A stretch of 64,000 nt of DNA, from positions 1-64,000 of the forward strand of contig JAFZQJ010000027.1 in assembly GCA_017620395.1 (NCBI GenBank), given 5' to 3'. The translations under genes were made by a program, and so were the position numbers. The DNA is from Clostridia bacterium (lineage in GTDB: Bacteria > Bacillota > Clostridia > Oscillospirales > RGIG8002). The notes beneath the pieces are model-generated. The model made no database searches. It was not told where the DNA came from and saw nothing but the letters and a program-made list of their open reading frames with translations. Positions 1 through 42,072 of the stretch are shown here, piece by piece; the stretch's first letter is position 1, and each line of letters opens with the position of its first letter.

Positions 1-2
1 CC

Positions 3-359
3 GGCATGTTCGGCCATCCCGACATTTATCTTCCGAAATATAAGGTCGCCATCTTCGTTCATGGCTGTTACTGGCATCGGCATAGCGGATGCCAGTATGC
101 TTATATGCCGAAAAGCAGAGTGGAATTCTGGCAGAAGAAGTTCGATGACAACCTCCGCAGAGACAAGCTCGTCAAGGAAACGCTTGAGAGCCAAGGAATT
201 CGTTGTCTCATCGTTTGGGAATGTACTATCAAACGGATGAAAAATGAAAACAGTTACGAGAAAAAAGTGGTTGAAATAATCATACAGTTTGTGAAACAAT
301 CTCCCAAAAACTGTTATTTAGGAAATGGTAATGATTTGCCATTGCGTTACGAAATTTAA
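3..359 (+). CDS. vsr: Very short patch repair endonuclease (Vsr), 5' end missing
   Basis: The reading frame is open at the window edge, so the N-terminal part is missing. The visible part carries the Vsr core: G-H-P-D-I-Y (the PGKPDI-type strand with the metal-binding Asp), then I-F-V-H-G-C-Y-W-H-R-H, then the C-terminal V-W-E-C block. Vsr nicks the strand at T:G mismatches that arise by deamination of 5-methylcytosine and normally travels with a cytosine-5 methyltransferase. That partner would lie upstream, outside the window. Base composition is more AT-rich than the core genes further right, which fits a transferred restriction-modification remnant. The first ATG inside the window (position 6) is probably internal and not the start. 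Confidence 0.88.
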   Translation, partial: GMFGHPDIYLPKYKVAIFVHGCYWHRHSGCQYAYMPKSRVEFWQKKFDDNLRRDKLVKETLESQGIRCLIVWECTIKRMKNENSYEKKVVEIIIQFVKQSPKNCYLGNGNDLPLRYEI

Positions 360-400
360 CGATAACCTCGATTTTGTTAAAATAGCAATCTTCAGCCAAT

Positions 401-435
401 AAAAAAACCACCCGAAAACTTCGGGTGGCTTTTTT
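401..435. terminator. Bidirectional intrinsic terminator
   Basis: A perfect 9-bp stem (CCACCCGAA / TTCGGGTGG, loop AAC) is flanked by seven A on the left and six T on the right. It can end both vsr (plus strand) and the convergent minus-strand surface protein gene. Confidence 0.85.
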
Positions 436-451
436 ATTGCCGTGTTACCGC

Positions 452-1489
452 TTATTCTTTCGTTTTGGCGGATCTGTTTTTTCTGTTTTTTATCACTGCC
501 AGCGCGATAAGCGCGATCGAAGCGCCGATGGACATCAAAGCCCCGGTTATCAGCACGATTTTCAGAAACGGCGCATTTGAATTAAGTTTGATCGCGGTCG
601 TGGTGTCGATCTCCTCGGAGTTGATCAGGAAAAAGCTGCCGGAACCGGAAGCATAAACCGTGATCTCGCCCTTGTCGGGGTCGAGCGTATATTCGACGTT
701 GGAAAGGGTGCGCGATTCGGTATCATACAGCATCAGCGCAAGCTTTCCGTCGCGGTTATACTGGTTTACGCAGGCGGCGTTGACGCCGCGGACGAACTTG
801 ATCTTCCCGTCAAAAGAGTTCATTTCGGTCGGCTGTCCTTTGACGTCATAGGACGTCAGGGCGAGCGAAAACGTTTGCAGGATCCGGGAAGGAGATATCG
901 AAGATGTGACCTTGTCCATCATCGATTCGCTTATCGGGCCGTGGGAAACGACGAGCTTTGAATTGATGTGGTCGTCCTCGACGCAGGAGGCGGGTATCTC
1001 AATCGGCACCCAAACGTCGCATCCGTCGAATTCGATGCGGAAGTTGTCGTTGCCTTTCATGCCTTTTGCGTCCTTGTTGCGGATGGTGACTTCGTAATAC
1101 CCGTCGTTTTCCTCGGGCTCCAGTTTGAAATCCTTTCCGTCGTCGGGATCGCCGTCGCCGAGTTTGAGATCGGCGAATTTCGGCGTTTTACCCTGCACCG
1201 GATCGCCGGCGAAGCGGGAACCGGAAGAGCTTGACTGGGGCTCGGAACTGCTTTTGCTTCGCGTCGAGGATTCCGACTCGTCTGATTCGGAGCTGTCGGA
1301 ATCGCCGCCGTCGGAGTCCGAACTCTCGGATTCCTGCTCGTCGCTGCTTGAACTCTCGATCTCCGCGCTTTCGGAAGATTCGGGCGCAGCGGGGGAACTC
1401 TCCGAATCGCCCTCCGCCAGAGAAACAAGGCAGGGGACGCAGGCGAGCAGCAGTATCAATATGAGAATCAAAACGGTCTTTGCTTTCAC
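452..1489 (-). CDS. Hypothetical surface protein, Ser/Glu-rich linker, C-terminal membrane anchor
   Basis: The 345-residue protein has a clear signal peptide (residues 1-25, long Leu/Ile core), a low-complexity Ser/Glu/Asp linker (about 26-95), a globular extracellular region (about 100-290) and one hydrophobic segment near the C-terminus (about 308-332) followed by a basic tail. This predicts a type I membrane protein facing outwards. The start is GTG at 1489 with only a weak Shine-Dalgarno (AGGCGG). I do not recognise a family in the globular part. The gene has its own sigma-A promoter inside the 3' end of the upstream metallophosphoesterase gene. The similar Ser-rich linker in the glucosaminidase 1 kb away suggests that both span the cell wall. 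Confidence 0.75.
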   Translation of the reverse strand: MKAKTVLILILILLLACVPCLVSLAEGDSESSPAAPESSESAEIESSSSDEQESESSDSDGGDSDSSESDESESSTRSKSSSEPQSSSSGSRFAGDPVQGKTPKFADLKLGDGDPDDGKDFKLEPEENDGYYEVTIRNKDAKGMKGNDNFRIEFDGCDVWVPIEIPASCVEDDHINSKLVVSHGPISESMMDKVTSSISPSRILQTFSLALTSYDVKGQPTEMNSFDGKIKFVRGVNAACVNQYNRDGKLALMLYDTESRTLSNVEYTLDPDKGEITVYASGSGSFFLINSEEIDTTTAIKLNSNAPFLKIVLITGALMSIGASIALIALAVIKNRKNRSAKTKE

Positions 1490-1519
1490 GATATCATCCG
1501 CCTATGAGTTGATAAATTG

Positions 1520-1548
1520 ATTATACACCGTTACTCCGCTTTTTTCAA
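1520..1548 (-). promoter_or_regulatory. Sigma-A promoter for the Ser-rich surface protein
   Basis: On the minus strand TTGAAA (1548-1543), a 17-bp spacer and TATAAT (1525-1520). The -35 lies inside the last codons of the upstream metallophosphoesterase gene, so the surface protein can be expressed separately. Confidence 0.75.
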
Positions 1549-2385
1549 GACTATTTCCGCAACTTCCGGACGGCAGAGGAAACGGAGCGGTATCAGCGCG
1601 CGTCCGAGTCCCGCGGTCACGAACATCTTCGTCTTTCCGCGTTCATACAGACCGTAGCAGTATTCGGGGAAAAGCCGCCGCGTCGGTGAAAACACGCCGC
1701 CGAGCCCGGGAATGCGCACGATGCCGCCGTGTATATGCCCGCTTAAAACGAGGTCGTATCCGGCGTCAGCGTACTGCGGGAAAAACTGCGGAACGTGCGC
1801 CATAAGTATATTAACTTCGCCCTCGACCGGCTTCAGCGCGCCGTCGAGCGTCCCCTCGGGGATGCGGAACGGGTGCACGCCTTTATGCCTCGCGCCTTCG
1901 AGAGAGAGACCGAAAAGATTGATATGCGCGCCGTTCCTTTCGATGCGGCAGGCGGAGTTGTCGAGCAGTACGCAGCCGGTATCGCGCAGGTCCGCGCGCT
2001 GCTTTTCAAGCAGGTCGTTATGGCGGTAAACAAGCCGCAGCTCGTGGTTGCCGAGCGAAACGTAGACGGGCAGCGGCTTCAGCCCGAGCCAGAGCTTGTG
2101 CGCGGCGCCTTTTTCCGGATGCTCGAACGAAACGCCGCCGGCGAAATCCCCGGTTATAAGCACGCAGTCGGGCTTGCAGTTCTTTATACGCGAAATAAGC
2201 CTCCCGTTGCCTTTTCCGAAGGAGGCGTTGTGCAGGTCGGATATGTGGACGAGCCTGAAGCCGTCGAATTCGTCCGGCAGGTTCCGGATCGGGATCTCCG
2301 TCCGCGTCGTTCGGAGCGTAAAGGTGGAGATCAGCGCCGCGCCGAGAAGAACGGCCGCGGCCGCAATCAAAATATAAATGACCAT
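1531..2385 (-). CDS. Membrane-anchored calcineurin-like metallophosphoesterase
   Basis: The 284-residue protein has an N-terminal transmembrane helix (residues 3-23) and the full calcineurin-like metal-binding set: H-I-S-D-L-H, I-T-G-D-F, L-G-N-H-E, M-A-H-V-P and S-G-H-I-H-G-G. This matches the YkuE-like branch of small membrane metallophosphoesterases. The substrate is not known from sequence. The ATG at 2385 has no Shine-Dalgarno and lies only 6 bp downstream of a near-perfect -10 box, so the transcript is predicted to be leaderless. It is transcribed divergently from the glucosaminidase gene, and its promoter and the neighbour's are about 30 bp apart. Confidence 0.88.
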   Translation of the reverse strand: MVIYILIAAAAVLLGAALISTFTLRTTRTEIPIRNLPDEFDGFRLVHISDLHNASFGKGNGRLISRIKNCKPDCVLITGDFAGGVSFEHPEKGAAHKLWLGLKPLPVYVSLGNHELRLVYRHNDLLEKQRADLRDTGCVLLDNSACRIERNGAHINLFGLSLEGARHKGVHPFRIPEGTLDGALKPVEGEVNILMAHVPQFFPQYADAGYDLVLSGHIHGGIVRIPGLGGVFSPTRRLFPEYCYGLYERGKTKMFVTAGLGRALIPLRFLCRPEVAEIVLKKAE

Positions 2386-2391
2386 ACGTCA

Positions 2392-2420
2392 ATTATACGA
2401 TAAAACCGCGCGTATTACAA
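2392..2420 (-). promoter_or_regulatory. Sigma-A promoter giving a predicted leaderless mRNA
   Basis: Minus strand TTGTAA (2420-2415), 17-bp spacer, TATAAT (2397-2392), then six bases and the ATG of the metallophosphoesterase. The expected transcription start coincides with the start codon. Confidence 0.7.
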
Positions 2421-2450
2421 CCCCCGATATTCGTCAGGAAGATAATAACT

Positions 2451-2479
2451 TTGACAATTGCGCGGTTTTGTGTTATATT
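2451..2479 (+). promoter_or_regulatory. Sigma-A promoter for the glucosaminidase
   Basis: TTGACA (2451-2456), 17-bp spacer, TATATT (2474-2479), about 30 bp upstream of the TTG start at 2510. It decides the start: an in-frame ATG at 2378 lies upstream of the promoter, and one at 2480 abuts the -10. Confidence 0.8.
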
Positions 2480-2509
2480 ATGTCGAAAGATGGGAAGGGA
2501 GGCTACGGT

Positions 2510-3511
2510 TTGGAACCGAAGACGAAGCGTACGCTTAAAATAATCACCGGCGTTATGGCTGCGCTGTTCTTCGGTGTCGCCGTGATGACCTTCTTCACTT
2601 TCTCCGAAAACAATTACGTCGCCGACTACGGTAAGATACGGCAGGTCGTCGCCGCGAACGCCCGCGTGAGCAGCAGCTCGAAGAGCAGCGGGTACTTTTC
2701 CTTCAACCTGAAGGAAGCCGACGCAGCGGAATCGTCAGAAGACAGCGGATCGGAAAGCGAAAGCGGCTCCGGTTCGTCCGCCGCTTCCGAAAGCGCGCCG
2801 TCATCGTCGTCTGGAAGCTCGTCTTCCTCGAAGTCGGCTTCGAGCTCCTCTTCAAAGTCAAGTTCAAGCTCCGTATCAAGCTCGGCGGACGAATATTCGG
2901 GTTCGTCCCCGTCTTCATCCGAAGACCAAACCGGCGTTATCCCTATACTCGGCGCGAGCGTGCTGACGGAATCGCAGCTTCTCGCTTACTCCGCCGCGCA
3001 CAAAGACGAAATGAGCCTGACCTGTTCGCTCGACGAACTTATCGGATACTACCTCTCAATCGGCGCGAAATACGGCGTGCGCGGCGACATAGCGTACCTG
3101 CAGGCGATAATCGAAACAGGCTGGTTCAGATTCAACCGGCCGAACGGATATCACGTATACGAGGGCGGCGAATGGGTTTATAAAAACGGTCCGCGCCCGG
3201 ACGGGTATTATGTCGTTCCGTCGGATAACAACTTCTGCGGACTCGGCGTAACCGGATACGTAAGCGAAAACAACACGCTGTGCCGCTTCGATACCGCCGC
3301 GCTCGGCGTGGAAGCGCAGATACAGCACCTCTACGCCTACGCCTGCAAATCGCCGCTCCCGTCCGGAACTGCGGAGATCGACCCGCGCTTCAATCTCGTG
3401 ACGCGCGGATGCGCGCCGAACTGGAACGACCTCGGCGGAGGCAACTGGGCGGCGGATAAGGAATACGCCGCAAAAATACTCGCTTCTTACAAAAAAGCGT
3501 CGGGAGAATAA
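2510..3511 (+). CDS. Secreted or membrane-tethered glucosaminidase (peptidoglycan hydrolase)
   Basis: From the TTG at 2510 (GGGAGG seven bases upstream) the protein has 333 residues: a short basic N-terminus, a signal-anchor helix (about 10-30), a long Ser-rich linker (about 50-145) and a C-terminal glucosaminidase-like domain (about 150-333). That domain shows E-T-G-W-F-R-F, N-N-F-C-G-L-G-V and G-V-E-A-Q-I-Q-H-L-Y-A-Y. These are the hallmarks of the mannosyl-glycoprotein endo-beta-N-acetylglucosaminidase family that cuts between GlcNAc and MurNAc in cell-wall glycan. The catalytic Glu is probably that of A-I-I-E-T-G. It converges with spoIIR with only six bases between the stop codons and no obvious terminator. 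Confidence 0.85.
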   Translation: MEPKTKRTLKIITGVMAALFFGVAVMTFFTFSENNYVADYGKIRQVVAANARVSSSSKSSGYFSFNLKEADAAESSEDSGSESESGSGSSAASESAPSSSSGSSSSSKSASSSSSKSSSSSVSSSADEYSGSSPSSSEDQTGVIPILGASVLTESQLLAYSAAHKDEMSLTCSLDELIGYYLSIGAKYGVRGDIAYLQAIIETGWFRFNRPNGYHVYEGGEWVYKNGPRPDGYYVVPSDNNFCGLGVTGYVSENNTLCRFDTAALGVEAQIQHLYAYACKSPLPSGTAEIDPRFNLVTRGCAPNWNDLGGGNWAADKEYAAKILASYKKASGE

Positions 3512-3517
3512 CCGCCG

Positions 3518-4117
3518 TCAGCTGAAAAGATTTTTCAGAAACCGGAACCACTCGACGACTTTCAGCTTGATCTTATAACCCGTTTCGTTCCCGCTGCGCA
3601 TGAGCTTGTAATCGCTCGCGGGCAACTCGTTTCCTTTCGCCGCCGAAACGCAAAGCGGCGGGAACAGAACGCACCACCAGTTTTTGCCTTCTCCCTTGCC
3701 GAGCACGACCTTCAGCGCGTCGTAATCGCCGGAAGGCAGCGTGTTGCCGTCGTATTCGCGCGTGTCGAAGCAGGAGCGCGAGAGCGAGATCTCCGCGCCG
3801 TAGCCGAAGCCTTTTTCCGCGAGGAACGCGTTGACCTTTTCGGTCAGCGCCGCCGCGTTTTCTCTGAAATACGCCTCCGCATCGCCCTTATCGGCCGCGT
3901 CTCCGACGCGGCTTTTCGTTTCTGCGAGCAGCAGGTCGCGCACCTCCAGCTTGACCGCCTGGTCGGCTTCGGAATCGGAGTTCGCGATAACGTGCAGGCG
4001 CAGCACGTCGCCGCGCAGCTGTTCGCAGTTCCGCGCAAAGACGGAGACGTCGGCGGCGAATGCGGATATCAGCAGCAGTATAACGGTAAGTATCACGGCC
4101 CATCTGGTTTTTGTCAT
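3518..4117 (-). CDS. spoIIR: Stage II sporulation protein R
   Basis: SpoIIR is the forespore-made secreted signal that triggers SpoIIGA to process pro-sigma-E in the mother cell. The 199-residue protein has an N-terminal signal/anchor helix (about 5-25) and the family core L-R-L-H-V-I-A-N-S-D-S-E-A-D-Q-x-V-K-x-x-V-R-D. It also has the distal W-W-C-V-L-F-P-P-L-C block typical of SpoIIR. The ATG at 4117 was chosen because GGA of AAGGA lies nine bases upstream. ATGs at 4123 and 4126 overlap that Shine-Dalgarno. A forespore-type promoter-like sequence lies just upstream. Confidence 0.93.
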   Translation of the reverse strand: MTKTRWAVILTVILLLISAFAADVSVFARNCEQLRGDVLRLHVIANSDSEADQAVKLEVRDLLLAETKSRVGDAADKGDAEAYFRENAAALTEKVNAFLAEKGFGYGAEISLSRSCFDTREYDGNTLPSGDYDALKVVLGKGEGKNWWCVLFPPLCVSAAKGNELPASDYKLMRSGNETGYKIKLKVVEWFRFLKNLFS

Positions 4118-4150
4118 TTTCATCATTCCTTTTCTTCGGCGTTCAAAGGG

Positions 4151-4179
4151 AGTATTTGCCAAATGCGCGCGATTTATGC
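4151..4179 (-). promoter_or_regulatory. Candidate forespore (sigma-F/G-type) promoter of spoIIR
   Basis: On the minus strand GCATA (4179-4175), 14 bp, then GGCAAATACT (4160-4151). The -35 matches the forespore sigma consensus, the -10 only partly (the GGnrA start fits), and the spacer is a base or two short. Position is right, about 33 bp before the start codon, and SpoIIR is known to be sigma-F dependent. Confidence 0.35.
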
Positions 4180-4187
4180 GGAAACGC

Positions 4188-4216
4188 TTGCAACTTTTCC
4201 CAAAGTATGCTAATAT
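4188..4216 (+). promoter_or_regulatory. Sigma-A promoter for the FNT-family channel
   Basis: TTGCAA (4188-4193), 17-bp spacer, TAATAT (4211-4216), about 40 bp before the ATG at 4256. It sits back to back with the candidate spoIIR promoter. Confidence 0.6.
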
Positions 4217-4255
4217 TCAGTTATTCGGGAAATACGAAACGAAGGGTGATGCGTT

Positions 4256-4870
4256 ATGCTGAAACAAGCGAAAACATTCGTTCAGGCGATCGCGGCGGGG
4301 CTTATGATAAGCATCGGCGGCACCGTGTATATGATCTGCCCGAATAAACTTCTCGGCGCGTTCATGTTCGCGCTCGGACTGTTTATGGTCTGCGTGTGGA
4401 AATTCAACCTTTTCACCGGCAAGATCGGCTACGTCGTGGAGGATAAGTCCACGTGGAAAACGCTGGCGCAGATATGGATAGGCAACCTCTGCGGCGCGCT
4501 TCTCGCGGGATACGCCGTCCGAGCGACGCGTATGTTCGACAAGATGAGCGAAGCGGTGACCGCCTCCGTTGAAGCGAAGCTCGGCGACGCGTGGTACAGC
4601 ACCTTCCTGCTGGCGATATTCTGCGGAATGCTGATGTTCCTCGCGGTCGACACCTTCAAAACGGTCGAGAGCGGCTTTATGAAGACCGTAGCGGTAATTC
4701 TGCCTATCGCCGTCTTCATCGTCGCGGGCTTCAACCACTGCATCGCGGATATGTATTACATTTCCGCGGCGAACGCGTGGTCGCTCGACGCCGCCGTTTA
4801 CGTGCTCATCGTGACCGCCGGCAACGCCGTCGGCTCGGTCATAATCGCGTTTTTCAAGAAGTTCCGGTAA
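4256..4870 (+). CDS. Formate/nitrite transporter (FNT) family channel, short form
   Basis: The 204-residue hydrophobic protein has about six membrane helices and FNT features: a first helix with G-L-M-I-S-I-G-G, the K-L-L-G-A-F-M-F-A-L-G-L block, the N-L-F-T-G-K segment, and the central-pore histidine in G-F-N-H-C-I-A-D-M-Y-Y (His161). FNT channels conduct formate, nitrite or hydrosulfide as anion or acid; the substrate cannot be told here. Most family members are 250-290 residues, so this is a compact version lacking the N-terminal extension. It is divergent from spoIIR and upstream of spoIVB. Confidence 0.8.
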   Translation: MLKQAKTFVQAIAAGLMISIGGTVYMICPNKLLGAFMFALGLFMVCVWKFNLFTGKIGYVVEDKSTWKTLAQIWIGNLCGALLAGYAVRATRMFDKMSEAVTASVEAKLGDAWYSTFLLAIFCGMLMFLAVDTFKTVESGFMKTVAVILPIAVFIVAGFNHCIADMYYISAANAWSLDAAVYVLIVTAGNAVGSVIIAFFKKFR

Positions 4871-4916
4871 AATAAATCACGTCCGTTCGGGCAGAATACC
4901 CGTAGAGGTGATTTGA

Positions 4917-6104
4917 TTGATAAAGAAAACGCTCGTAATACTTCTCGTCGCGCTCTTTATTTTAGGAGGGCTTGCGGGAGCATGGTTTTATGCGCGCGGC
5001 AGGGTCGCGGACGAGTATTACGTCAAGGACGGACAGGAATTCACACTCGCGGGCGCGTCCGTTACGGTGCGGGCGAACGGCGGCGCGGCGCAGGCATCCG
5101 CGGGCGACGGCAGCTTCAAGGGTACCGCGCGGCTCTTCGGCTTCATTCCGCTTAAAACGGTAAAGCTGAAAACTGTCGCGGAGAACTCCGTCGTTATCGG
5201 CGGCGAGGCGTTCGGACTGAAGATGTATACCAACGGGCTCATCGTCGTCGGCTTCAGCGACATAAGCACTGAGCGGGGGACAGAAAACCCCGCCCGCGAC
5301 GCCGGGATTGAAAAGGGCGACCTGCTCAAAAGCGTCAACGGCGTGCGCCTGACGAAAAACAGCGACGTCACGTCGCTGATAAACGCCGCCCGCGGCGCGG
5401 AAGCGACGCTCGTCCTTGAGCGAGGCGGCGTGAAGAAGACCGTAACGCTGACTCCCGCGCTTTCAGCCGAAGACGGCAAATACAAGCTCGGTATCTGGGT
5501 GCGCGACAGCGCGGCAGGAATAGGCACGATAAGCTTTTACGAGCCCGAAACCGGCCTTTTTGTCGGTCTCGGCCACGGCATCTACGATTCCGATACCGAG
5601 GCGCTTATGCCGGCCGCGCAGGGCGAGATCGTCAAAACGACGATAACCGGCGTCAAGCGCGGCGAGAAGGGCTCGCCCGGCGAGCTTTACGGCTTCTTCG
5701 ACCAGGAGACCGTCATCGGCGAGCTTCACGGCAACAGCGAGCTCGGAGTCTACGGCAAGCTGACCGCGGCGGTCGAAGGGGATAGAATGCCTGTCGCGCT
5801 GAAGCAGGAGATCGAGATCGGCGACGCGAAGCTGATTACCCCCGCGATAGACGGCGGCAAGGCGGAATACGACGTGCGCATAACGAGCATCGTCAACGAC
5901 GACAAGGGCAGCGGCAGGAATATGATAATAAAGATAACCGACGAAAAGCTGCTTGAACTTACCGGCGGCATCGTGCAGGGGATGAGCGGCAGCCCGATAA
6001 TCCAGAACGGCAAGATCGTCGGCGCGGTAACGCACGTTCTTGTCAACGATCCGACCTCCGGCTACGCCGTTTTCGCGGAGAGGATGTACGACCTGATAGG
6101 TTGA
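4917..6104 (+). CDS. spoIVB: SpoIVB peptidase (S55 family, PDZ domain)
   Basis: SpoIVB is secreted from the forespore and cleaves SpoIVFA, which releases the SpoIVFB protease to activate pro-sigma-K. The 395-residue protein has an N-terminal membrane/signal segment (about 4-24), a PDZ domain (about 100-180: G-I-E-K-G-D-L-L-K-S-V-N-G) and an S55 serine protease domain. The catalytic elements are visible: G-L-G-H-G-I (His), G-M-S-G-S-P-I (Ser), and a downstream N-D-P-T-S-G-Y block. The start is TTG at 4917, six bases after AGAGGTG. The pro-sigma-K target gene (sigK) is also in this window. Confidence 0.95.
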   Translation: MIKKTLVILLVALFILGGLAGAWFYARGRVADEYYVKDGQEFTLAGASVTVRANGGAAQASAGDGSFKGTARLFGFIPLKTVKLKTVAENSVVIGGEAFGLKMYTNGLIVVGFSDISTERGTENPARDAGIEKGDLLKSVNGVRLTKNSDVTSLINAARGAEATLVLERGGVKKTVTLTPALSAEDGKYKLGIWVRDSAAGIGTISFYEPETGLFVGLGHGIYDSDTEALMPAAQGEIVKTTITGVKRGEKGSPGELYGFFDQETVIGELHGNSELGVYGKLTAAVEGDRMPVALKQEIEIGDAKLITPAIDGGKAEYDVRITSIVNDDKGSGRNMIIKITDEKLLELTGGIVQGMSGSPIIQNGKIVGAVTHVLVNDPTSGYAVFAERMYDLIG

Positions 6105-6140
6105 CAATGCCTCTTTACAAAAGCGATAGTTAAGTAAACA

Positions 6141-6174
6141 AAAACTCCCGGCCTTGCGGTCGGGAGTCGTTTTA
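6141..6174. terminator. Bidirectional terminator between spoIVB and glnN
   Basis: Stem ACTCCCG / CGGGAGT, continued by a G-T wobble and CC/GG, loop TTGC, flanked by A on the left and T on the right. It serves the convergent spoIVB and glnN genes. Confidence 0.8.
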
Positions 6175-6186
6175 TTCTCGCGTGTT

Positions 6187-8286
<2,100 letters not shown>

Positions 8287-8303
8287 CGTTCTTTCCTTTC
8301 TCG

Positions 8304-9311
8304 TCAGAGCAGCTTTACGCCGTGCCTGCGGCAGGCGGCGACGGTGTCCTCGTCCCAGACGGAGACCTGTACCTCGCCGATGTGCGCCTTTTGAAGCAGC
8401 AGCATGCAGAGCCGCGACTGTCCGATACCGCCGCCTATCGTCAGCGGCAGAGTGCCGTTCAGCACCATTTTGTGGAAGGGGAAGCGGCGGCGCTCGTCGG
8501 CGTTCGCCTTTTTAAGCTGCTCGTCCATCGAAGCGGCGTCGACGCGAATGCCCATAGATGATATCTCGAGGGCGCAGTCGAGCAGCTCGTCGTAAAACAT
8601 GATGTCGCCGTTCAGCTTCCAGTCGTCATAGTCGGGAGCGCGCCCGTCGTGCTTCTTTCCGGAAGCGAGCGCGTCGCCTATTTGCATGATGAACGCCGTG
8701 TGATGCTGTCGCAGGAAGGCGTTTTCGCGCTGCTTTGAGGTCATGTCGGGATACGCGTCCTCAAGCTCCTGCGTGGTGACGAACGCGACCTCGCGGTCGA
8801 GCGAAACGGTGATGCTCGGATATTTCGACTTGATGAAATCAAGGGTGTCGCAGATCGCGCCTACCTCGGCGGTGACCGTCTTTTTCAGGTATTCGATGTT
8901 CCTGTCTTCGCGCGTGATGACCTTTTCCCAGTCCCACTGGTCGGTGTAGACGGAGTGGAGGTTATCCAGCGTTTCGTCGCGGCGGATGGCGTTCATGTCG
9001 GTGCAGAGCCCTTCGCCCGCGGGGAAGCCGTATTCGTAAAGCGCCAGGCGCTTCCACTTTGCGAGCGAATGGACGACGGCGGCGTTTCCGCCCGTCTCGG
9101 GAATATCGAAAAGCACGGGCCGCTCGACGCCGTTGAGGTCGTCGTTCAGTCCGGTCGCGGGATCGACGAAAAGCGGCGCGGAAACGCGCTTCAGATTCAG
9201 CGCGGAGCAGAGATTATCCTGAAACACCCTCTTGATGAGACCGATCGCGGTCTGCGTTTCGTAGAGGGAGAGGGCGGAGGAATATCCCGCCGGTATGTGT
9301 ATCTTGCTCAT
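8304..9311 (-). CDS. asnA: Aspartate-ammonia ligase
   Basis: The 335-residue enzyme makes asparagine from aspartate, free ammonia and ATP; it is related to class II aminoacyl-tRNA synthetases. Family signatures are visible: the N-terminal T-Q-x-A-I-x-x-I-K-x-x-F-Q block, L-N-L-x-R-V-S-A-P-L-F, V-H-S-L-A-K-W-K-R, and the C-terminal L-T-I-G-G-G-I-G-Q-S-R-L-C-M-L-L. Length matches the family. It is the first gene of the asnA-glnN operon, behind a consensus promoter. Confidence 0.97.
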   Translation of the reverse strand: MSKIHIPAGYSSALSLYETQTAIGLIKRVFQDNLCSALNLKRVSAPLFVDPATGLNDDLNGVERPVLFDIPETGGNAAVVHSLAKWKRLALYEYGFPAGEGLCTDMNAIRRDETLDNLHSVYTDQWDWEKVITREDRNIEYLKKTVTAEVGAICDTLDFIKSKYPSITVSLDREVAFVTTQELEDAYPDMTSKQRENAFLRQHHTAFIMQIGDALASGKKHDGRAPDYDDWKLNGDIMFYDELLDCALEISSMGIRVDAASMDEQLKKANADERRRFPFHKMVLNGTLPLTIGGGIGQSRLCMLLLQKAHIGEVQVSVWDEDTVAACRRHGVKLL

Positions 9312-9384
9312 GTCCGTTGCTCCTTTTCGCTTTCTGTTTATGACCGATTCAAAAACAATCCGCCATTATATTTGTATATTTTGG

Positions 9385-9413
9385 ATTATATGTTCGCGCG
9401 CGTAATTTGTCAA
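9385..9413 (-). promoter_or_regulatory. Consensus sigma-A promoter of asnA-glnN
   Basis: Minus strand TTGACA (9413-9408), exactly 17 bp, TATAAT (9390-9385). Both hexamers match the consensus perfectly. The leader to the asnA start is about 65 nt; I see no obvious riboswitch in it. Confidence 0.9.
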
Positions 9414-9511
9414 TAGTTTTTTCCTCCGCGCCCGCGGAATCGTGGTATTGCGCCTTTTTCTCAACTCCGGAGACGTATTTTTATGCAATTTTCCGGTAAA
9501 AAAATATTCTC

Positions 9512-9540
9512 TTGCAATTATTCCGCCGAAGGGTTAGAAT
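9512..9540 (+). promoter_or_regulatory. Sigma-A promoter of pncB-rlmH
   Basis: TTGCAA (9512-9517), 17-bp spacer, TAGAAT (9535-9540). It lies 23 bp before the ATG at 9564, so an upstream in-frame ATG at 9483 cannot be the start. Confidence 0.75.
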
Positions 9541-9563
9541 ATTATCAAACGGGAGGCGTCAGT

Positions 9564-11015
9564 ATGAAGAACGAAAGAATGCCCAATATCTCGATGCTCA
9601 CTGATTTCTATGAGATGACGATGGGGAACGGATACCTCAAATACTTCGGTGAAAAGACCGCGTACTTCGACGCGTTTTTCCGCCGCGTTCCCGACGGCGG
9701 CGGCTTCGCCGTCTGCGCCGGACTCGAGTCGGTCGTCGATTACATTTCGAACCTGCGCTTCACCGGCGAGGATATAGACTACCTGTGCCGTCAGAAAATG
9801 TTTTCCGAGGAGTTCCTCGAATATCTCCGCGACTTCAAGTTCGTCTGCGACGTGTGGGCGATACCGGAAGGCACACCGGTCTTCCCGGGCGAACCTCTCG
9901 TAACGGTGCGCGGTCCGGTCGCGCAGGCGCAGCTGCTTGAAACCGCGCTGCTTCTGCTCATAAACCATCAGACGCTTATCGCGACGAAGGCGAACCGCAT
10001 CGTCCGCGCCGCCGGCGGCAGAGCCGTAAGCGAATTCGGCGCGCGCCGCGCTCACGGCACGAGCAGCGCTCTCTTCGCCGCGCGTTCCGCCTACATCGCC
10101 GGCTGCGCCAACACCTCGAACGTTATGGCCGCGCAGCAGTTCGATATCCCTTGCTCCGGCACGATGGCACATTCGTGGGTGCAGATGTTCGACAGCGAAT
10201 ACGACGCCTTCGCCGCCTACGCGGAGACCTATCCGGACGCCTGCGTCCTGCTCATCGACACGTATAACGTGCTGAAAAGCGGACTTCCGAACGCGATAAA
10301 AGTATTCGACGAGGTCCTCGCGCCGATGGGCAAGCGCCCCGCGGGAATACGCATAGACTCCGGCGACATCGCGTACCTGACGAAAAAGATCCGCCAGCGC
10401 CTCGACGCGGCGGGGTATCCCGACTGCAAGATCGTCGTCAGCAACTCCCTCGACGAACGCATCATCCGCGACACTCTCGTTCAGGGCGCGCAGATAGACT
10501 TCTTCGGCGTCGGCGAACGCCTCGTGACGAGCGAGACGGAGCCGGTTTTCGGCGGCGTCTACAAGCTCTGCGCGGTCGAGAACGACGGCGAGATAATCCC
10601 GAAGATAAAGATAAGCGAAAACCCCGCGAAGATCACCACGCCTTACTTCAAAAAGGTCTACCGCCTATACGAGCGCGACACCGGCAAGGCGATAGCCGAC
10701 GTCGTTACCGCTTACGACGAAACGATCGACGACACGAAGCCCTACGAGATCTTCGACCCGGATTACACATGGAAGCGCAAGATTGTAACGAACTTCAAAG
10801 CGCGTCTTATCACCGAGCGCATCTTCGACGGCGGCAGGCTCGTATACAAGCTGCCCGATATCGAAGACATCAAGAAGTACTGCGCCGAGCAGATCGACAC
10901 CCTCTGGGGCGAGGTCACACGCTTCGAGAATCCGCATAACTACTACGTCGACCTGTCGCAGCGCATCTGGGATATCAAGAACGCGATTCTGAAAAAGGAG
11001 CAGTATAACATTTGA
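9564..11015 (+). CDS. pncB: Nicotinate phosphoribosyltransferase
   Basis: It salvages nicotinate into NAD synthesis by making nicotinate mononucleotide from nicotinate and PRPP. The 483-residue protein begins with the typical M-L-T-D-F-Y-E-M-T-M block. It has E-F-G-A-R-R-A-H-G around the PRPP/nicotinate site, G-T-M-A-H-S-W, and the phosphate-binding region I-D-S-G-D-I-A-Y. The start is ATG 9564, seven bases after GGGAGG and just downstream of the promoter. Its stop overlaps the TTG start of rlmH by four bases, indicating translational coupling. Confidence 0.96.
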   Translation: MKNERMPNISMLTDFYEMTMGNGYLKYFGEKTAYFDAFFRRVPDGGGFAVCAGLESVVDYISNLRFTGEDIDYLCRQKMFSEEFLEYLRDFKFVCDVWAIPEGTPVFPGEPLVTVRGPVAQAQLLETALLLLINHQTLIATKANRIVRAAGGRAVSEFGARRAHGTSSALFAARSAYIAGCANTSNVMAAQQFDIPCSGTMAHSWVQMFDSEYDAFAAYAETYPDACVLLIDTYNVLKSGLPNAIKVFDEVLAPMGKRPAGIRIDSGDIAYLTKKIRQRLDAAGYPDCKIVVSNSLDERIIRDTLVQGAQIDFFGVGERLVTSETEPVFGGVYKLCAVENDGEIIPKIKISENPAKITTPYFKKVYRLYERDTGKAIADVVTAYDETIDDTKPYEIFDPDYTWKRKIVTNFKARLITERIFDGGRLVYKLPDIEDIKKYCAEQIDTLWGEVTRFENPHNYYVDLSQRIWDIKNAILKKEQYNI

Positions 11016-11491
11016 TCGGAGTCAAAATCGTCTGCGTGGGCAAGCTGAAGGAAAGCTGGCTTTCCGCCGCCTGCGCCGAATACCTCAAGCGGCTCTCGCG
11101 ATACTGTCAGCCGGCGGTCGCGGAGCTTGCGGAGCATACGCTTCCGGAGAAGCCGAACGAGGCTCAGATCGCCGCCGCGCTTGAAAAAGAGGGCGAAGCG
11201 ATACTCAAAGCGTGCGAGGGGCATTATACCGTAGCGGCGTGCGTCGAGGGAGAGCAGATGAGCTCGGAGGAGCTTTCGCGCACGCTCGACCGCCTTTCCT
11301 CCGAAGGGAAGGGCAGGATCGCCTTCGTGATCGGCAGTTCGCACGGCCTTTCCGAAAAGGTCAAGCGCGCCGCTGATATGCGCCTTTCGGTATCGGAGAT
11401 GACATTTCCGCATCAGCTTTTCCGCGTGATGCTGCTTGAGCAAATCTACCGCGCCTTCTCGATTTCCGCGGGCGCGAAATACCACAAATAA
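11012..11491 (+). CDS. rlmH: 23S rRNA (pseudouridine-1915-N3)-methyltransferase
   Basis: RlmH is a SPOUT-fold methyltransferase that modifies helix 69 of 23S rRNA in assembled ribosomes. The 159-residue length is standard. The knot-region signature F-V-I-G-S-S-H-G-L-S and the C-terminal Q-L-F-R-V-M-L-L-E-Q-I-Y-R-A-F-x-I-x-x-G-x-x-Y-H-K are intact. The start is TTG at 11012, overlapping the pncB stop (TTGA). Confidence 0.97.
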   Translation: MIGVKIVCVGKLKESWLSAACAEYLKRLSRYCQPAVAELAEHTLPEKPNEAQIAAALEKEGEAILKACEGHYTVAACVEGEQMSSEELSRTLDRLSSEGKGRIAFVIGSSHGLSEKVKRAADMRLSVSEMTFPHQLFRVMLLEQIYRAFSISAGAKYHK

Positions 11492-11513
11492 ACGGCGCGG
11501 AACCGCCGTCCAG

Positions 11514-11545
11514 ACGCCTTTCCGGATTTCCGGAGAGGCGTTTTT
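11514..11545 (+). terminator. Intrinsic terminator of pncB-rlmH
   Basis: Hairpin ACGCCTTTCCGG / CCGGAGAGGCGT with a small loop, followed by five T. Confidence 0.85.
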
Positions 11546-11567
11546 GCATATTTTTATTAGAAAAGAC

Positions 11568-11595
11568 TTGATAAATCTCACGGTTGTGGTATAAT
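11568..11595 (+). promoter_or_regulatory. Sigma-A promoter of the yicC-prkC operon
   Basis: TTGATA (11568-11573), 16-bp spacer, TATAAT (11590-11595). It is about 70 bp before yicC, with the rlmH terminator just upstream. Confidence 0.8.
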
Positions 11596-11668
11596 TTAAT
11601 TACTCATAATATGGATTACTGTGCCGGATTATTATTCCGGCGATTCTGAAAGAAGGAAGACGGTAAAA

Positions 11669-12553
11669 ATGGTATTGAGCATGACCGGCTTCGGCAGAGC
11701 CGAGGCGTCGGTAAACGGACGCGAGATCGTTTTTGAGATACGCTCCGTCAACCACAGATACTTTGAATTCAACAGCAGGGTCCCGAAGCTTTACGGCTTC
11801 CTTGAAGATCCGCTGAAAAAGCTCGTGCGCGAGCGCATATCCCGCGGCAAAATAGAAGCGTATCTGACGGTGCGCCAGAGCGAAGGGAGCCTCGCCCGCG
11901 TACGCCTCAACGACGGACTGCTCGAGAGCTACCTTTCCGCGCTGAAGGAAATGATCGCGAAGCACGGTCTTCGCGACGACATTTCCGCCACGGCGGTCTC
12001 GCGCTTCCCGGACGTCTTCATCGTCGATGACGCCGAGGAGGACGCAGACGCGCTTTCCGCGGACGTGTTCGCGGTCGTGGCGCAGGCGCTGGACGTATAT
12101 AACGAAATGCGCCGCACCGAAGGCGCCAAACTGGCGGAGGACATAATCGAACGCCTCGCGCTTATCTCCGGCATGGTCGACAGAATCGAAGCGCGTGCGC
12201 CGGAGCTCAACCGCGAATACTTCGAGCGCCTGTCCCGCCGCATAAAAGAACTGCTCGAGAGCGTCCAGCCGGACGAGGGCAGACTGCTGACCGAAGCGGC
12301 GGTATTTTCCGACAAGACCAACGTCACGGAAGAGATCGTCCGCCTGCGCAGTCATATTTCGCAGTTCGGCGCCGCGATGAAGGCCTCCGGCGGCGAGCCG
12401 GTCGGCAAGCGGCTCGACTTCATCGTTCAGGAAATGAACAGAGAGATAAACACCATCGGCTCCAAGTGCAACGACATGGAGATAACGGGAATCGTTATCG
12501 ACGTGAAGGCTGAGATCGAAAAGATCAGGGAGCAGATACAGAACATCGAGTGA
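11669..12553 (+). CDS. yicC: YicC/YloC family endoribonuclease
   Basis: The 294-residue protein starts M-V-L-S-M-T-G-F-G-R-A-E, the diagnostic YicC N-terminus, followed by E-I-R-S-V-N-H-R-Y-F-E. It ends with the family block R-L-D-F-I-V-Q-E-M-N-R-E-x-N-T-I-G-S-K. YicC-type proteins are reported endoribonucleases. The start at 11669 was chosen because of AGAAGGAAG upstream and the conserved N-terminus; an earlier in-frame ATG (11621) adds unconserved residues. It is first in the order yicC-remA-gmk-rpoZ-priA common in Bacillota. Confidence 0.93.
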   Translation: MVLSMTGFGRAEASVNGREIVFEIRSVNHRYFEFNSRVPKLYGFLEDPLKKLVRERISRGKIEAYLTVRQSEGSLARVRLNDGLLESYLSALKEMIAKHGLRDDISATAVSRFPDVFIVDDAEEDADALSADVFAVVAQALDVYNEMRRTEGAKLAEDIIERLALISGMVDRIEARAPELNREYFERLSRRIKELLESVQPDEGRLLTEAAVFSDKTNVTEEIVRLRSHISQFGAAMKASGGEPVGKRLDFIVQEMNREINTIGSKCNDMEITGIVIDVKAEIEKIREQIQNIE

Positions 12554-12568
12554 TTCGGAGGAAGACGT

Positions 12569-12823
12569 ATGAAACTCATCAGCGTCGGATACGGCAATAT
12601 GCTTGCCGCCGACCGCGTGGTCGCGGTGCTCGGCGGCGTCTCGGCGCCGACGAGGCGGCTCGTCGCGGAAGCGCGTGAAAAGGGGCTGCTTATCGACGCC
12701 ACCTGCGGCAGACGCACAAAGTCCGTCATCGTTACCGATTCCGAGCACTGCGTGCTTTCGGCGGTCGCGCCGGAAACGATAGCCGCACGAATAAAGACGG
12801 AGGAAGAAGAGAATGAGGAATAA
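12569..12823 (+). CDS. remA: RemA-like regulatory protein (DUF370)
   Basis: The 84-residue protein matches the RemA/DUF370 family: a G-Y-G-N-M-L-A-A-D-R-V-V-A-V core, A-P-T-R-R-L-V, and a D-A-T-C-G-R-R-T-K-S-V-I-V block. RemA in Bacillus subtilis is a DNA-binding activator of extracellular matrix genes; the role in this lineage is not established. It sits between yicC and gmk, the family's usual place, and its end overlaps the gmk start by 11 bases. Confidence 0.93.
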   Translation: MKLISVGYGNMLAADRVVAVLGGVSAPTRRLVAEAREKGLLIDATCGRRTKSVIVTDSEHCVLSAVAPETIAARIKTEEEENEE

Positions 12824-13391
12824 AAGAAAAGGGCTGCTGATAGTCTTTTCCGGCCCTTCCGGATGCGGAAAAACGACTATACTCGGCGAGTATATGAAAG
12901 GCCGCGACGACTGCGTGTTTTCGGTTTCAGCGACGACCCGCGCTCCGCGTCCCGGCGAACAGGAGGGCGTGGACTACTTCTACGTCACGCGCAAAAAGTT
13001 CGAGCGTATGATCAAAAAGGGTCAGCTGCTCGAGCATACGATTTATAACGAGAACTATTACGGAACGCCGCTGAAACCCGTGCTTTCCGCGATGAAGAAG
13101 GGGAAGGACGTCGTTTTCGATATCGAAGTCGACGGCGCTTCGCAGGTCAAAAAGCAGTATCCGGACTCGGTAACGATATTCCTCAAGCCGCCGAGCCTGG
13201 AGGAGCTACGCCGCCGTCTTGAAGGCAGAGGCACCGAAACTCAGGAGGCGATCGAGAAGCGCCTCGCCCGCGCCGAGATCGAGATGGGTTACGCGGACAG
13301 GTACGATCATATCATCGTCAACGACACCATCGAGCAGGCGGCGTCCGAACTGCGCGGCATCATCGAGTCCGCGCACGAAAAACAGCAGTAA
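12813..13391 (+). CDS. gmk: Guanylate kinase
   Basis: It phosphorylates GMP to GDP with ATP. The 192-residue protein has the P-loop F-S-G-P-S-G-C-G-K-T-T, the GMP-binding S-A-T-T-R-A-P-R-P-G-E-x-E-G-V-D-Y-F-Y block, and I-E-V-D-G-A-S-Q-V-K. Length and motif order are standard. It is translationally coupled to remA by overlap. Confidence 0.97.
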   Translation: MRNKRKGLLIVFSGPSGCGKTTILGEYMKGRDDCVFSVSATTRAPRPGEQEGVDYFYVTRKKFERMIKKGQLLEHTIYNENYYGTPLKPVLSAMKKGKDVVFDIEVDGASQVKKQYPDSVTIFLKPPSLEELRRRLEGRGTETQEAIEKRLARAEIEMGYADRYDHIIVNDTIEQAASELRGIIESAHEKQQ

Positions 13392-13394
13392 TCA

Positions 13395-13422
13395 GACTGA
13401 TTGTCCTTGCAGCCAATCAGTC
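13395..13422 (+). other. Inverted repeat/hairpin between gmk and rpoZ
   Basis: A perfect 9-bp inverted repeat, GACTGATTG (13395-13403) and CAATCAGTC (13414-13422), with a 10-nt loop lies in the 65-bp gap. No T-run follows, so it is not a standard terminator. It may be an RNA-processing or stability hairpin within the operon. Confidence 0.5.
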
Positions 13423-13456
13423 AAATACAACACTCAAAGAAAGAAGGAAAAAGACT

Positions 13457-13648
13457 ATGATGCTTCATCCGGCAATCGGCGAACTTACGAAGGACGGCGA
13501 CAACGCGTACTCCATCGTTATCGCGGCGGCCAAGCGCGCCCGCGAGATCGCCAGCGAGGCGAAGGACAAGGAAGAAGTCCTCGAAGAAAGCCCCATGATG
13601 ATCGCCGTCAGAGATTTTGCGGACGGCAAGACCAAGATCAAGCACTGA
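13457..13648 (+). CDS. rpoZ: RNA polymerase omega subunit
   Basis: The 63-residue protein begins M-M-L-H-P-A-I-G-E-L and has the central S-I-V-I-A-A-A-K-R-A-R-E-I-A helix of omega. Omega assists folding and assembly of the beta-prime subunit. Position between gmk and priA is the usual one. It is slightly shorter than many homologues but complete at both ends, with an AAGAAGGAAAAAG-type Shine-Dalgarno upstream. Confidence 0.92.
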   Translation: MMLHPAIGELTKDGDNAYSIVIAAAKRAREIASEAKDKEEVLEESPMMIAVRDFADGKTKIKH

Positions 13649-41357: not shown

Positions 41358-41720
41358 TCACATTCTTTCGCTCTTTTCTTTCATGGTTTTTATAGATGAA
41401 ATAAGCATTCGTCTGATAGCGCCGCAATCGTTTTGTATCGGTTTGTATGTTTGTTCGTTCATATATCCGGTTTCAAACAGCAATTCAAGCCAATACTCAG
41501 TTTCATATACTTCTTTTAATGATATCTCAAATTTTGATATAAAATCTTTTGTACCCTGTGCGTACTGCGCCTCGTAAATGTTTGCGCCGATTGATGTGCC
41601 GCTTCTGAGCAGTTGATTAGTCAGTACGGATTCGCGGCGTTCTTGCTTGATGGATCTGCAAAGAACAACAATCTGTTTCGCAAAATCCTTGGATTTGTCG
41701 CGGAGAACGCTATCGGACAT
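41358..41720 (-). CDS. Four-helix-bundle protein (S23/Avd-like)
   Basis: The 120-residue, almost wholly helical protein matches the four-helix-bundle family (23S rRNA intervening-sequence protein family): L-R-D-K-S-K-D-F-A, L-L-R-S-G-T-S-I-G-A-N-I-Y-E-A, F-I-S-K-F-E-I-S-L-K-E-V-Y-E-T-E-Y-W-L. Homologues are encoded inside 23S rRNA intervening sequences. The fold is shared with Avd, the accessory protein of diversity-generating retroelements, which binds nucleic acid. No reverse transcriptase or rRNA is nearby. Start ATG 41720 follows GAGGTG by six bases. AT-rich. Its promoter abuts the hairpin array, which suggests a functional or mobile link. Confidence 0.9.
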   Translation of the reverse strand: MSDSVLRDKSKDFAKQIVVLCRSIKQERRESVLTNQLLRSGTSIGANIYEAQYAQGTKDFISKFEISLKEVYETEYWLELLFETGYMNEQTYKPIQNDCGAIRRMLISSIKTMKEKSERM

Positions 41721-41738
41721 TGTAATCACCTCGTATAA

Positions 41739-41767
41739 AGTATAGCATAAGACTTGTATTATTTCAA
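41739..41767 (-). promoter_or_regulatory. Sigma-A promoter of the four-helix-bundle gene
   Basis: Minus strand TTGAAA (41767-41762), 17-bp spacer, TATACT (41744-41739). Its -35 touches the first base of the hairpin array. Confidence 0.75.
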
Positions 41768-41946
41768 GTTATATTGCCGTCTTTGACGGCAGTTATATTG
41801 ATCCTGCGGATCAGTTATATTGCCTCTGCGAGGCAGTTATATTATATTCGCCTTGCTATATTCAAACTGCGCGTAGCGCAATATCACTCGCGAAGCGAAT
41901 ATAACTGGGCGAAGCCCAATATAACTCGCCGCAGGCGAATATAACT
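41767..41946. repeat. Nested hairpin array with AGTTATATT / AATATAACT spacers
   Basis: In 180 bp there are four direct copies of AGTTATATT (starting 41767, 41791, 41813, 41835). They are mirrored by four copies of the exact reverse complement AATATAACT (starting 41880 as AATATCACT, 41898, 41918, 41938). Between successive copies lie short perfect hairpins, each different: GCCGTC-TTT-GACGGC, GATCC-TGC-GGATC and GCCTC-TGC-GAGGC on the left; GCGC-GTA-GCGC, CGC-GAA-GCG, GGGC-GAA-GCCC and CGCC-GCA-GGCG on the right. Left spacers can pair with right spacers, so one strand can fold into a ladder in which each rung is a four-way junction with two small hairpins. The centre (41844-41867) is less regular. 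I do not know a named family for it. Confidence 0.9.
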
Positions 41947-41984
41947 GAAAGAGACCTGATTTGGCGACAAATCAGGTCTCTTTC
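41947..41984 (-). terminator. Long perfect hairpin directly 3' of tRNA-Leu
   Basis: A 17-bp perfect stem (41947-41963 with 41968-41984) and a 4-nt loop (GCGA on the plus strand). It starts one base after the encoded CCA of tRNA-Leu. It probably ends tRNA transcription, though the T-run is short (TTTC). It also continues the outer side of the hairpin array. Confidence 0.65.
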
Positions 41985-41985
41985 A

Positions 41986-42072
41986 TGGTGCCGGTGATCG
42001 GGTTCGAACCGATACGGGATTTCTCCCACGGGATTTTAAGTCCAGGGCGTCTGCCAATTCCGCCACACCGGC
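41986..42072 (-). tRNA. tRNA-Leu (anticodon UAA), CCA encoded
   Basis: The 87-nt cloverleaf has acceptor GCCGGTG/CACCGGC, an anticodon loop CTTAAAA giving UAA (reads UUA and UUG leucine codons), a long variable arm typical of class II tRNA-Leu, the T-loop GGTTCGAACCC and a genomically encoded CCA. The anticodon stem has one mismatch. Confidence 0.95.

Follow-up and report, generated by a model that had tools for sequence, protein, structure and literature searches.

Gut-1 (RF01706) is a candidate noncoding RNA to which no function is assigned, and its Rfam type reflects the judgement of its authors (Weinberg et al. 2010, PMC2864571). It is made of three hairpins separated by a spacer of the GUGAAAU type and was described as a stand-alone element found in human gut samples only. 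The 23S rRNA IVS of Coxiella and Leptospira, which is considered selfish, lies inside a helix of 23S rRNA and carries one pair of terminal inverted repeats around an S23p/IVP open reading frame (PMC4990558). Removal of such an IVS is by RNase III. The fold of the IVP family (PF05635) is solved (PDB 2rld and 2gsc), and a family protein of X. campestris is cited in PMC4990558 as a pentamer of four-helix bundles. No catalytic domain is known for IVP, and IVP/S23p proteins have lacked an assigned role ever since their discovery in 23S rRNA introns. REP/REPIN sequences are dispersed extragenic hairpins in inverted pairs with a short foot motif (GTAG/CGTC); they form several families, each beside its own RAYT gene, which encodes a Y1 HUH transposase (PMC3116915). 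Avd of diversity-generating retroelements is reported to be similar to PF05635 in both structure and sequence (PMC10053308).

In the window, by which we mean the whole 64-kb stretch that was analysed, an array of short spacers and hairpins adjoins an IVP gene (Table 1). Like Gut-1, the array has three hairpins separated by a GUGAAAU-type spacer. Unlike Gut-1 as described, this unit is half of a palindromic element, exists with many spacer variants, and is linked both with an IVP gene and with tRNA terminators. The 23S IVS shares with it the protein family, the presumed selfishness and the association with a structured RNA gene. However, the window element is not a 23S IVS: it sits between tRNA-Leu and the IVP promoter, behind the tRNA terminator, and in elements of this kind the array is mostly upstream of the open reading frame only. 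By analogy, the IVP and array element appears to work most like REP/RAYT, with dispersed palindromes in inverted pairs and several families that each accompany their own protein gene. It differs in its foot, which is RYKAWRT (e.g., GTTATAT, GTGATAT, ATGATAT) and not the REP motif, in having a four-helix-bundle IVP as partner instead of a Y1 HUH transposase, in combining several distinct hairpins in each element where REP sequences have one, and in its strong preference for tRNA/tmRNA terminators.

Two other candidates were tried and rejected. A diversity-generating retroelement is ruled out by the neighbouring genes: no reverse transcriptase or template/variable repeat is present among the genes examined around the window array, which are an acetyltransferase, a methyltransferase, an AMP-binding enzyme and a phosphofructokinase. 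In a sequence search of the PDB, the IVP profile did not find Avd. A type III toxin-antitoxin pair does not fit either, as the downstream protein matches PF05635 only and not the ToxN family.

Array, promoter and IVP gene in the window

On the forward strand, exact copies of AGTTATATT are found at 41767, 41791, 41813 and 41835, and exact copies of its complement, AATATAACT, at 41898, 41918 and 41938. The eighth copy, AATATCACT (41880-41888), carries a single change from AATATAACT. The initial annotation had reported four direct and four complementary 9-mers, one with a single change, and perfect hairpins with 3-nt loops that differ from gap to gap; all of these could be located exactly. Its claim of a symmetric layout fails for the middle of the array (about 41844-41866), where the 3' arm of the first hairpin is repeated. 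This repeated arm and a spacer complement, together GGCGAATATAA, are able to pair with TTATATTCGCC, i.e., the first spacer together with the H1 5' arm. The element is also longer than first described. It reaches from the presumed tRNA-Leu terminator hairpin, directly behind which the array starts, to the promoter of the IVP gene, and the order on the minus strand is tRNA-Leu, 17-bp hairpin, H1-H4 units, centre, H5-H7 units, promoter, IVP gene.

Chance alone would give 0.26 exact copies of the spacer in the 64 kb, against the seven observed, and the largest spacer count in 100 shuffles of the 64 kb is 2. Folded as DNA, the array strand reaches -44.1 kcal/mol versus -24.1 +/- 3.0 for shuffles (z -6.7). 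The copy number and the folding score together rule out chance. A further claim, that the array is explained by no known repeat family, has to be given up: by covariance-model score the array belongs to Gut-1 (56.8 bits against a curated cut-off of 50), and a partner IVP gene lies next to it.

Table 1. Features of the element and its host site in the window (positions in the 64-kb stretch).
Feature	Position	Strand	Basis
tRNA-Leu, host gene, transcribed toward the array	41986-42072	-	Rfam tRNA 48.9 bits; ARAGORN
17-bp perfect hairpin directly after tRNA-Leu, presumed terminator, GAAAGAGACCTGATTTGTCGCCAAATCAGGTCTCTTTC	41947-41984	-	sequence
First half-array, IVP-sense strand	41867-41946	-	sequence; Rfam Gut-1 match 41876-41947(-), 56.8 bits
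First half-array spacers, AGTTATATT	41938-41946, 41918-41926, 41898-41906	-	sequence
First half-array variant spacer, AGTGATATT	41880-41888	-	sequence
First half-array hairpins	H1 41926-41938; H2 41906-41918; H3 41888-41898; H4 41867-41881	-	sequence
Apparent remains of a further unit	41855-41866	-	sequence
Centre: H1 3' arm copy and spacer complement, GGCGAATATAA	41844-41854	-	conserved, co-varying in relatives
Second half-array	41767-41843	-	sequence; weak Gut-1 match 41790-41872(+), 29.6 bits
Second half-array spacers, AATATAACT	41835-41843, 41813-41821, 41791-41799, 41767-41775	-	sequence
Second half-array hairpins	H5 41821-41835; H6 41799-41813; H7 41775-41791	-	sequence
IVP promoter: -35 TTGAAA (41762-41767), 17 bp, TATACT (41739-41744)	41739-41767	-	sequence; layout shared by relatives
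IVP gene (23S_rRNA_IVP / four helix bundle protein), 120 codons	41358-41720	-	Pfam PF05635 96.8 bits, cut-off 33.8

The profile scores place the window protein in both PF05635, which is its sole Pfam match, and TIGR02436 (109.9 bits, cut-off 24), and it matches PDB 2rld with 115.6 bits. Its start is the ATG at 41718-41720, with the ribosome-binding site GAGGTG; the open reading frame finder had set the start at the GTG at 41729. The clade of this protein, at identities of at least 84%, spans several genera of rumen and gut Clostridia, and its spacer is mostly AGTTATATT and in a few cases AGTGATATT. The -35 box of the IVP promoter abuts the last spacer, and an offset of 6-7 from the last spacer to the -35 is found at 26 of 49 loci. 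The window array is upstream of this promoter and is therefore not the leader of the IVP mRNA. It lies on one side of the open reading frame only, and some loci (C30 and C32 of genome G000) have arrays on both sides.

Hairpin structure and the selected strand

Across 403 distinct inserts the hairpin usually spans the entire gap between spacers. Read on the AYWTMRY strand, the triloops are GNA in 131 of 206 cases and ANA in 32, C-G closes the loop in 195 of 206, and the 4-nt loops are mostly GNNA, again with C-G closing. On the RYKAWRT strand, TNY loops outnumber purine-N-A loops by 163 to 10. Single mismatches of the wobble type are commoner on the AYWTMRY strand (inner pairs, 21 vs 7; p 0.013). 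The loop and wobble biases point to a selected fold on one strand, opposite to that of the Rfam Gut-1 model, and suggest that the model probably describes the less structured strand. The wobble bias is significant but modest for inner pairs, and the strand reading thus leans mainly on the asymmetry of the loops. In DNA, hairpins are very stable when a GNA or GNNA loop is closed by C-G, and GNRA loops form stable RNA hairpins. Since such loops stabilise hairpins of both kinds, the selected molecule may be either RNA or single-stranded DNA.

The initial annotation had proposed that spacers are fixed within an array and that the hairpins vary but stay palindromic, and this is borne out: in thirteen ATGATAT elements, both sides have changed in 19 of 56 pairs. 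Its ladder of four-way junctions finds no support, as the fold conserved in relatives is a different one: comparative folding gives local hairpins and one long helix that closes the first half. In the RNAalifold structure of the ATGATAT elements, the first spacer and the H1 5' arm are paired with the centre, and the centre changes jointly with H1 in locus L165 and genome G033. Two outcomes that had been named in advance as speaking against the structure, similar symmetry in shuffled DNA and relatives with decayed copies only, did not occur; the relatives carry intact symmetric copies.

Individual hairpins and unit numbers also vary. For example, between loci L072 and L091, from species about 93% identical, the H7 stem has lost one pair symmetrically (ATCGCC..GGCGAT to ATCGC..GCGAT), which could reflect paired mutation or hairpin-templated copying. 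The array that precedes the IVP gene at L163 has as many as 15 spacers (7 forward, 8 reverse), an expansion which shows that unit number can grow.

Association with IVP genes and with tRNA/tmRNA terminators

Gut-1 is present in 31 and IVP in 33 of 59 related genomes. Both occur in 27 genomes, Gut-1 only in 4, IVP only in 6 and neither in 22 (Fisher p 3e-7; Spearman 0.74 over the 59 genomes), with a p value and locus counts that ignore shared ancestry. Outside the relatives, Gut-1 is found in only one of 149 genomes sampled across the phylum. The 1.9-Mb genome that contains the window has 33-40 Gut-1 matches and 4 IVP genes.

The survey covers about 130 IVP loci, most of them from metagenome-assembled sequences in which contigs often end in arrays. 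An array was scored where one 7-mer recurs exactly, at array spacing, four or more times within 300 bp of an IVP gene. Such arrays lie upstream of 65 of 124 IVP genes, a lower bound because the exact-repeat test misses degenerate arrays, and downstream of 9 of 124; about half of the IVP genes have no array by this test. None of 605 control tiles scores (0/189 far-flank, 0/416 window tiles), and in a contrast set of IVPs of other classes there are neither such arrays nor a tRNA within 450 bp (0/23). A literature search with partial coverage found no paper that links Gut-1 to IVP, and the link looks like a selfish partnership that is apparently undescribed.

The spacer word is 7-9 nt long across arrays. 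Its families have the form RYKAWRT and include GTTATAT, GTGATAT, ATGATAT, GTGAAAT, GCTAAAT, GCGATAT, ATGATGT and GTGAAGT, among others. The similarity of two spacers correlates with that of their IVP proteins (66 loci, Mantel r 0.67, 0/5000 permutations). The spacer is the same in 92% of pairs at IVP identities of at least 90%, 76% at 80-90%, 47% at 70-80% and 0-3% at 40-60%; between genomes, 123 of 154 pairs with at least 80% IVP identity have it in common. A protein that reads the spacer would be expected to produce such a coupling, but linkage within one element would by itself give part of it.

The paired halves of arrays face each other (-> -> then <- <-) in 38 of 39 cases. Among 38 complete arrays, 25 start 35-67 bp after the 3' end of a tRNA or tmRNA gene transcribed toward the array. 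This gap is the length of a terminator, and many isoacceptors are involved. A tRNA or tmRNA gene lies within 420 bp upstream of 53 of 123 IVP genes in the same direction and of 1 of 123 in the opposite direction. The array starts directly after the T-run or the hairpin, although the terminator sequences differ. Group IIC introns likewise insert directly downstream of intrinsic terminators; unlike them, the window element has neither an intron RNA nor a reverse transcriptase. Not all arrays are linked to tRNA genes, for copies of GTGATAT and GTGAAAT in the window's genome occupy many intergenic sites. Part of the adjacency to terminators may come from arrays persisting where they do no harm, and not from targeting.

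Occupancy of a given site differs between genomes. At the tmRNA site, the sister species G000, G002 and G003 carry three different spacer families, each after the terminator. At the tRNA-Glu site there is an array in G000, a truncated array in G001 and none in G003; at the tRNA-Val site G000 and G002 differ and G001 has none. Transposition is inferred from this occupancy; the empty sites belong to species that are more diverged and whose terminators differ, and no precise empty site at high identity was found.

The IVP gene can also go while the array stays. In G002 the window locus is present at 99% identity with its array but without the IVP open reading frame (window 41395-41736 missing), and at L076 an array is followed by a decayed promoter. 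Presence and absence contrast most clearly between parA and parB, where G000 has an IVP gene with arrays on both sides and G002, G001 and G003 have IVP-less remnants; a direct repeat of ~57 bp flanks the extra block, so insertion and deletion are equally possible there.

Several loci show other arrangements. At L224 (G001:C27) the site behind tRNA-Arg is empty, and after it part of the 3' end of the tRNA recurs in inverted orientation. For the array that is orthologous between L072 and L138 (G000:C22 and G003:C58), the relative orientation of the flanks is reversed in G003, as if one end of an inversion lay in the array. In L066 (G000:C10), positions 1-13500, several GTGATAT/GTGAAAT arrays lie among genes that appear to encode phage terminase, portal and capsid proteins, which may reflect entry into a prophage.

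Explanations of the element

The reading that we favour, and consider rather probable, treats the array in the window as the cis-acting component of a small selfish element composed of an IVP gene and a palindromic hairpin array. Given the IVP-spacer coupling, IVP would recognise the spacer of its own clade, single-stranded between the hairpins, and the complex would be the means by which the element copies or protects itself. The element would enter behind intrinsic terminators, mainly those of tRNA and tmRNA genes where it is observed, with little harm to the host, and its moving form could be RNA or single-stranded DNA. IVP would be expressed from the promoter whose -35 box abuts the last spacer, and as a result IVP binding could also repress IVP. 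The IVP gene appears to be deleted often, leaving arrays (the 'Gut-1' of Rfam) as scars, and such arrays may still serve in trans an IVP encoded elsewhere.

The position of the array just upstream of IVP, the contact of spacer and -35 box at about half of the loci, the coupling of spacer and protein, and the structured-strand bias in loops and wobble pairs would also suit an array that is mainly a regulatory site or RNA partner of IVP (autoregulation, a sponge or a pair resembling type III toxin-antitoxin), with IVP-less copies as dead remains. We judge this unlikely: Gut-1 matches far outnumber IVP genes in the window's genome, arrays without IVP keep perfect hairpins, and the window array is outside the IVP mRNA leader. 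In addition, the different spacer families at the same tRNA/tmRNA site in sister species suggest movement.

The view of Gut-1 as a small noncoding RNA in its own right, which is that of Rfam and of Weinberg et al. 2010 (PMC2864571), who list it from human gut samples only, agrees with the above-cut-off score and the compensatory changes. Nevertheless it seems quite improbable in view of dozens of copies per genome in palindromic facing halves, the strict link to IVP genes and tRNA terminators, a spacer that varies with IVP clade, and loops and wobble pairs that favour the strand opposite to the Rfam model. Still harder to sustain is the proposal that arrays are non-autonomous remnants moved by a Y1 transposase (IS200/IS605 or RAYT) with IVP as a passenger. 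In their inverted pairs and in the motif conserved at the hairpin foot, the arrays do resemble REPINs (PMC3116915), but no PF01797 is found in the window's genome, G000, G001 and G003 have no Y1 transposase despite 20-33 copies, Y1 is about as frequent in genomes with Gut-1 (about 14/31) as without (about 12/28), and the spacer is coupled to IVP. Chance or decayed repeats without function, for which only the AT-rich spacers speak, can practically be dismissed given the control tiles, the compensatory changes and the fixed facing order.

The selfish IVP-array element would join two orphans, the Gut-1 'RNA' and the IVP/S23p proteins, and offers a testable hypothesis for both, namely a cognate protein and nucleic-acid word. 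Protein and spacer word have split side by side into about ten families, so that simple swaps would suffice to test specificity. The link also accounts for numerous dispersed repeats in the genomes of gut Clostridia and for breaks in their assemblies. More tentatively, and with clear doubt, the element could represent a new kind of mobile system in which an Avd-like four-helix-bundle protein, lacking any known nuclease or transposase, reads a clade-specific spacer presented between hairpins and spreads palindromic arrays behind tRNA/tmRNA terminators, perhaps through RNA or single-stranded DNA and host enzymes, with the IVSs of 23S rRNA and RNase P RNA as sister lineages.

IVPs found in 23S rRNA and in RNase P RNA suggest that IVP elements favour structured RNA genes generally, and a habit of settling at the hairpins of such genes (23S rRNA, RNase P RNA, tRNA/tmRNA terminators) may be common to them. 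Among IVPs of other classes in the phylum, 4 of 20 are inside 23S rRNA as classic IVSs (L269, L273, L276, L280). At L275:1229-2003 (G106:C1) an IVP gene lies inside the RNase P RNA gene, at a helix tip after model position 136 (P12 by position); this IVS-like insertion has inverted repeats at its ends, and a near-identical second locus is present at L277.
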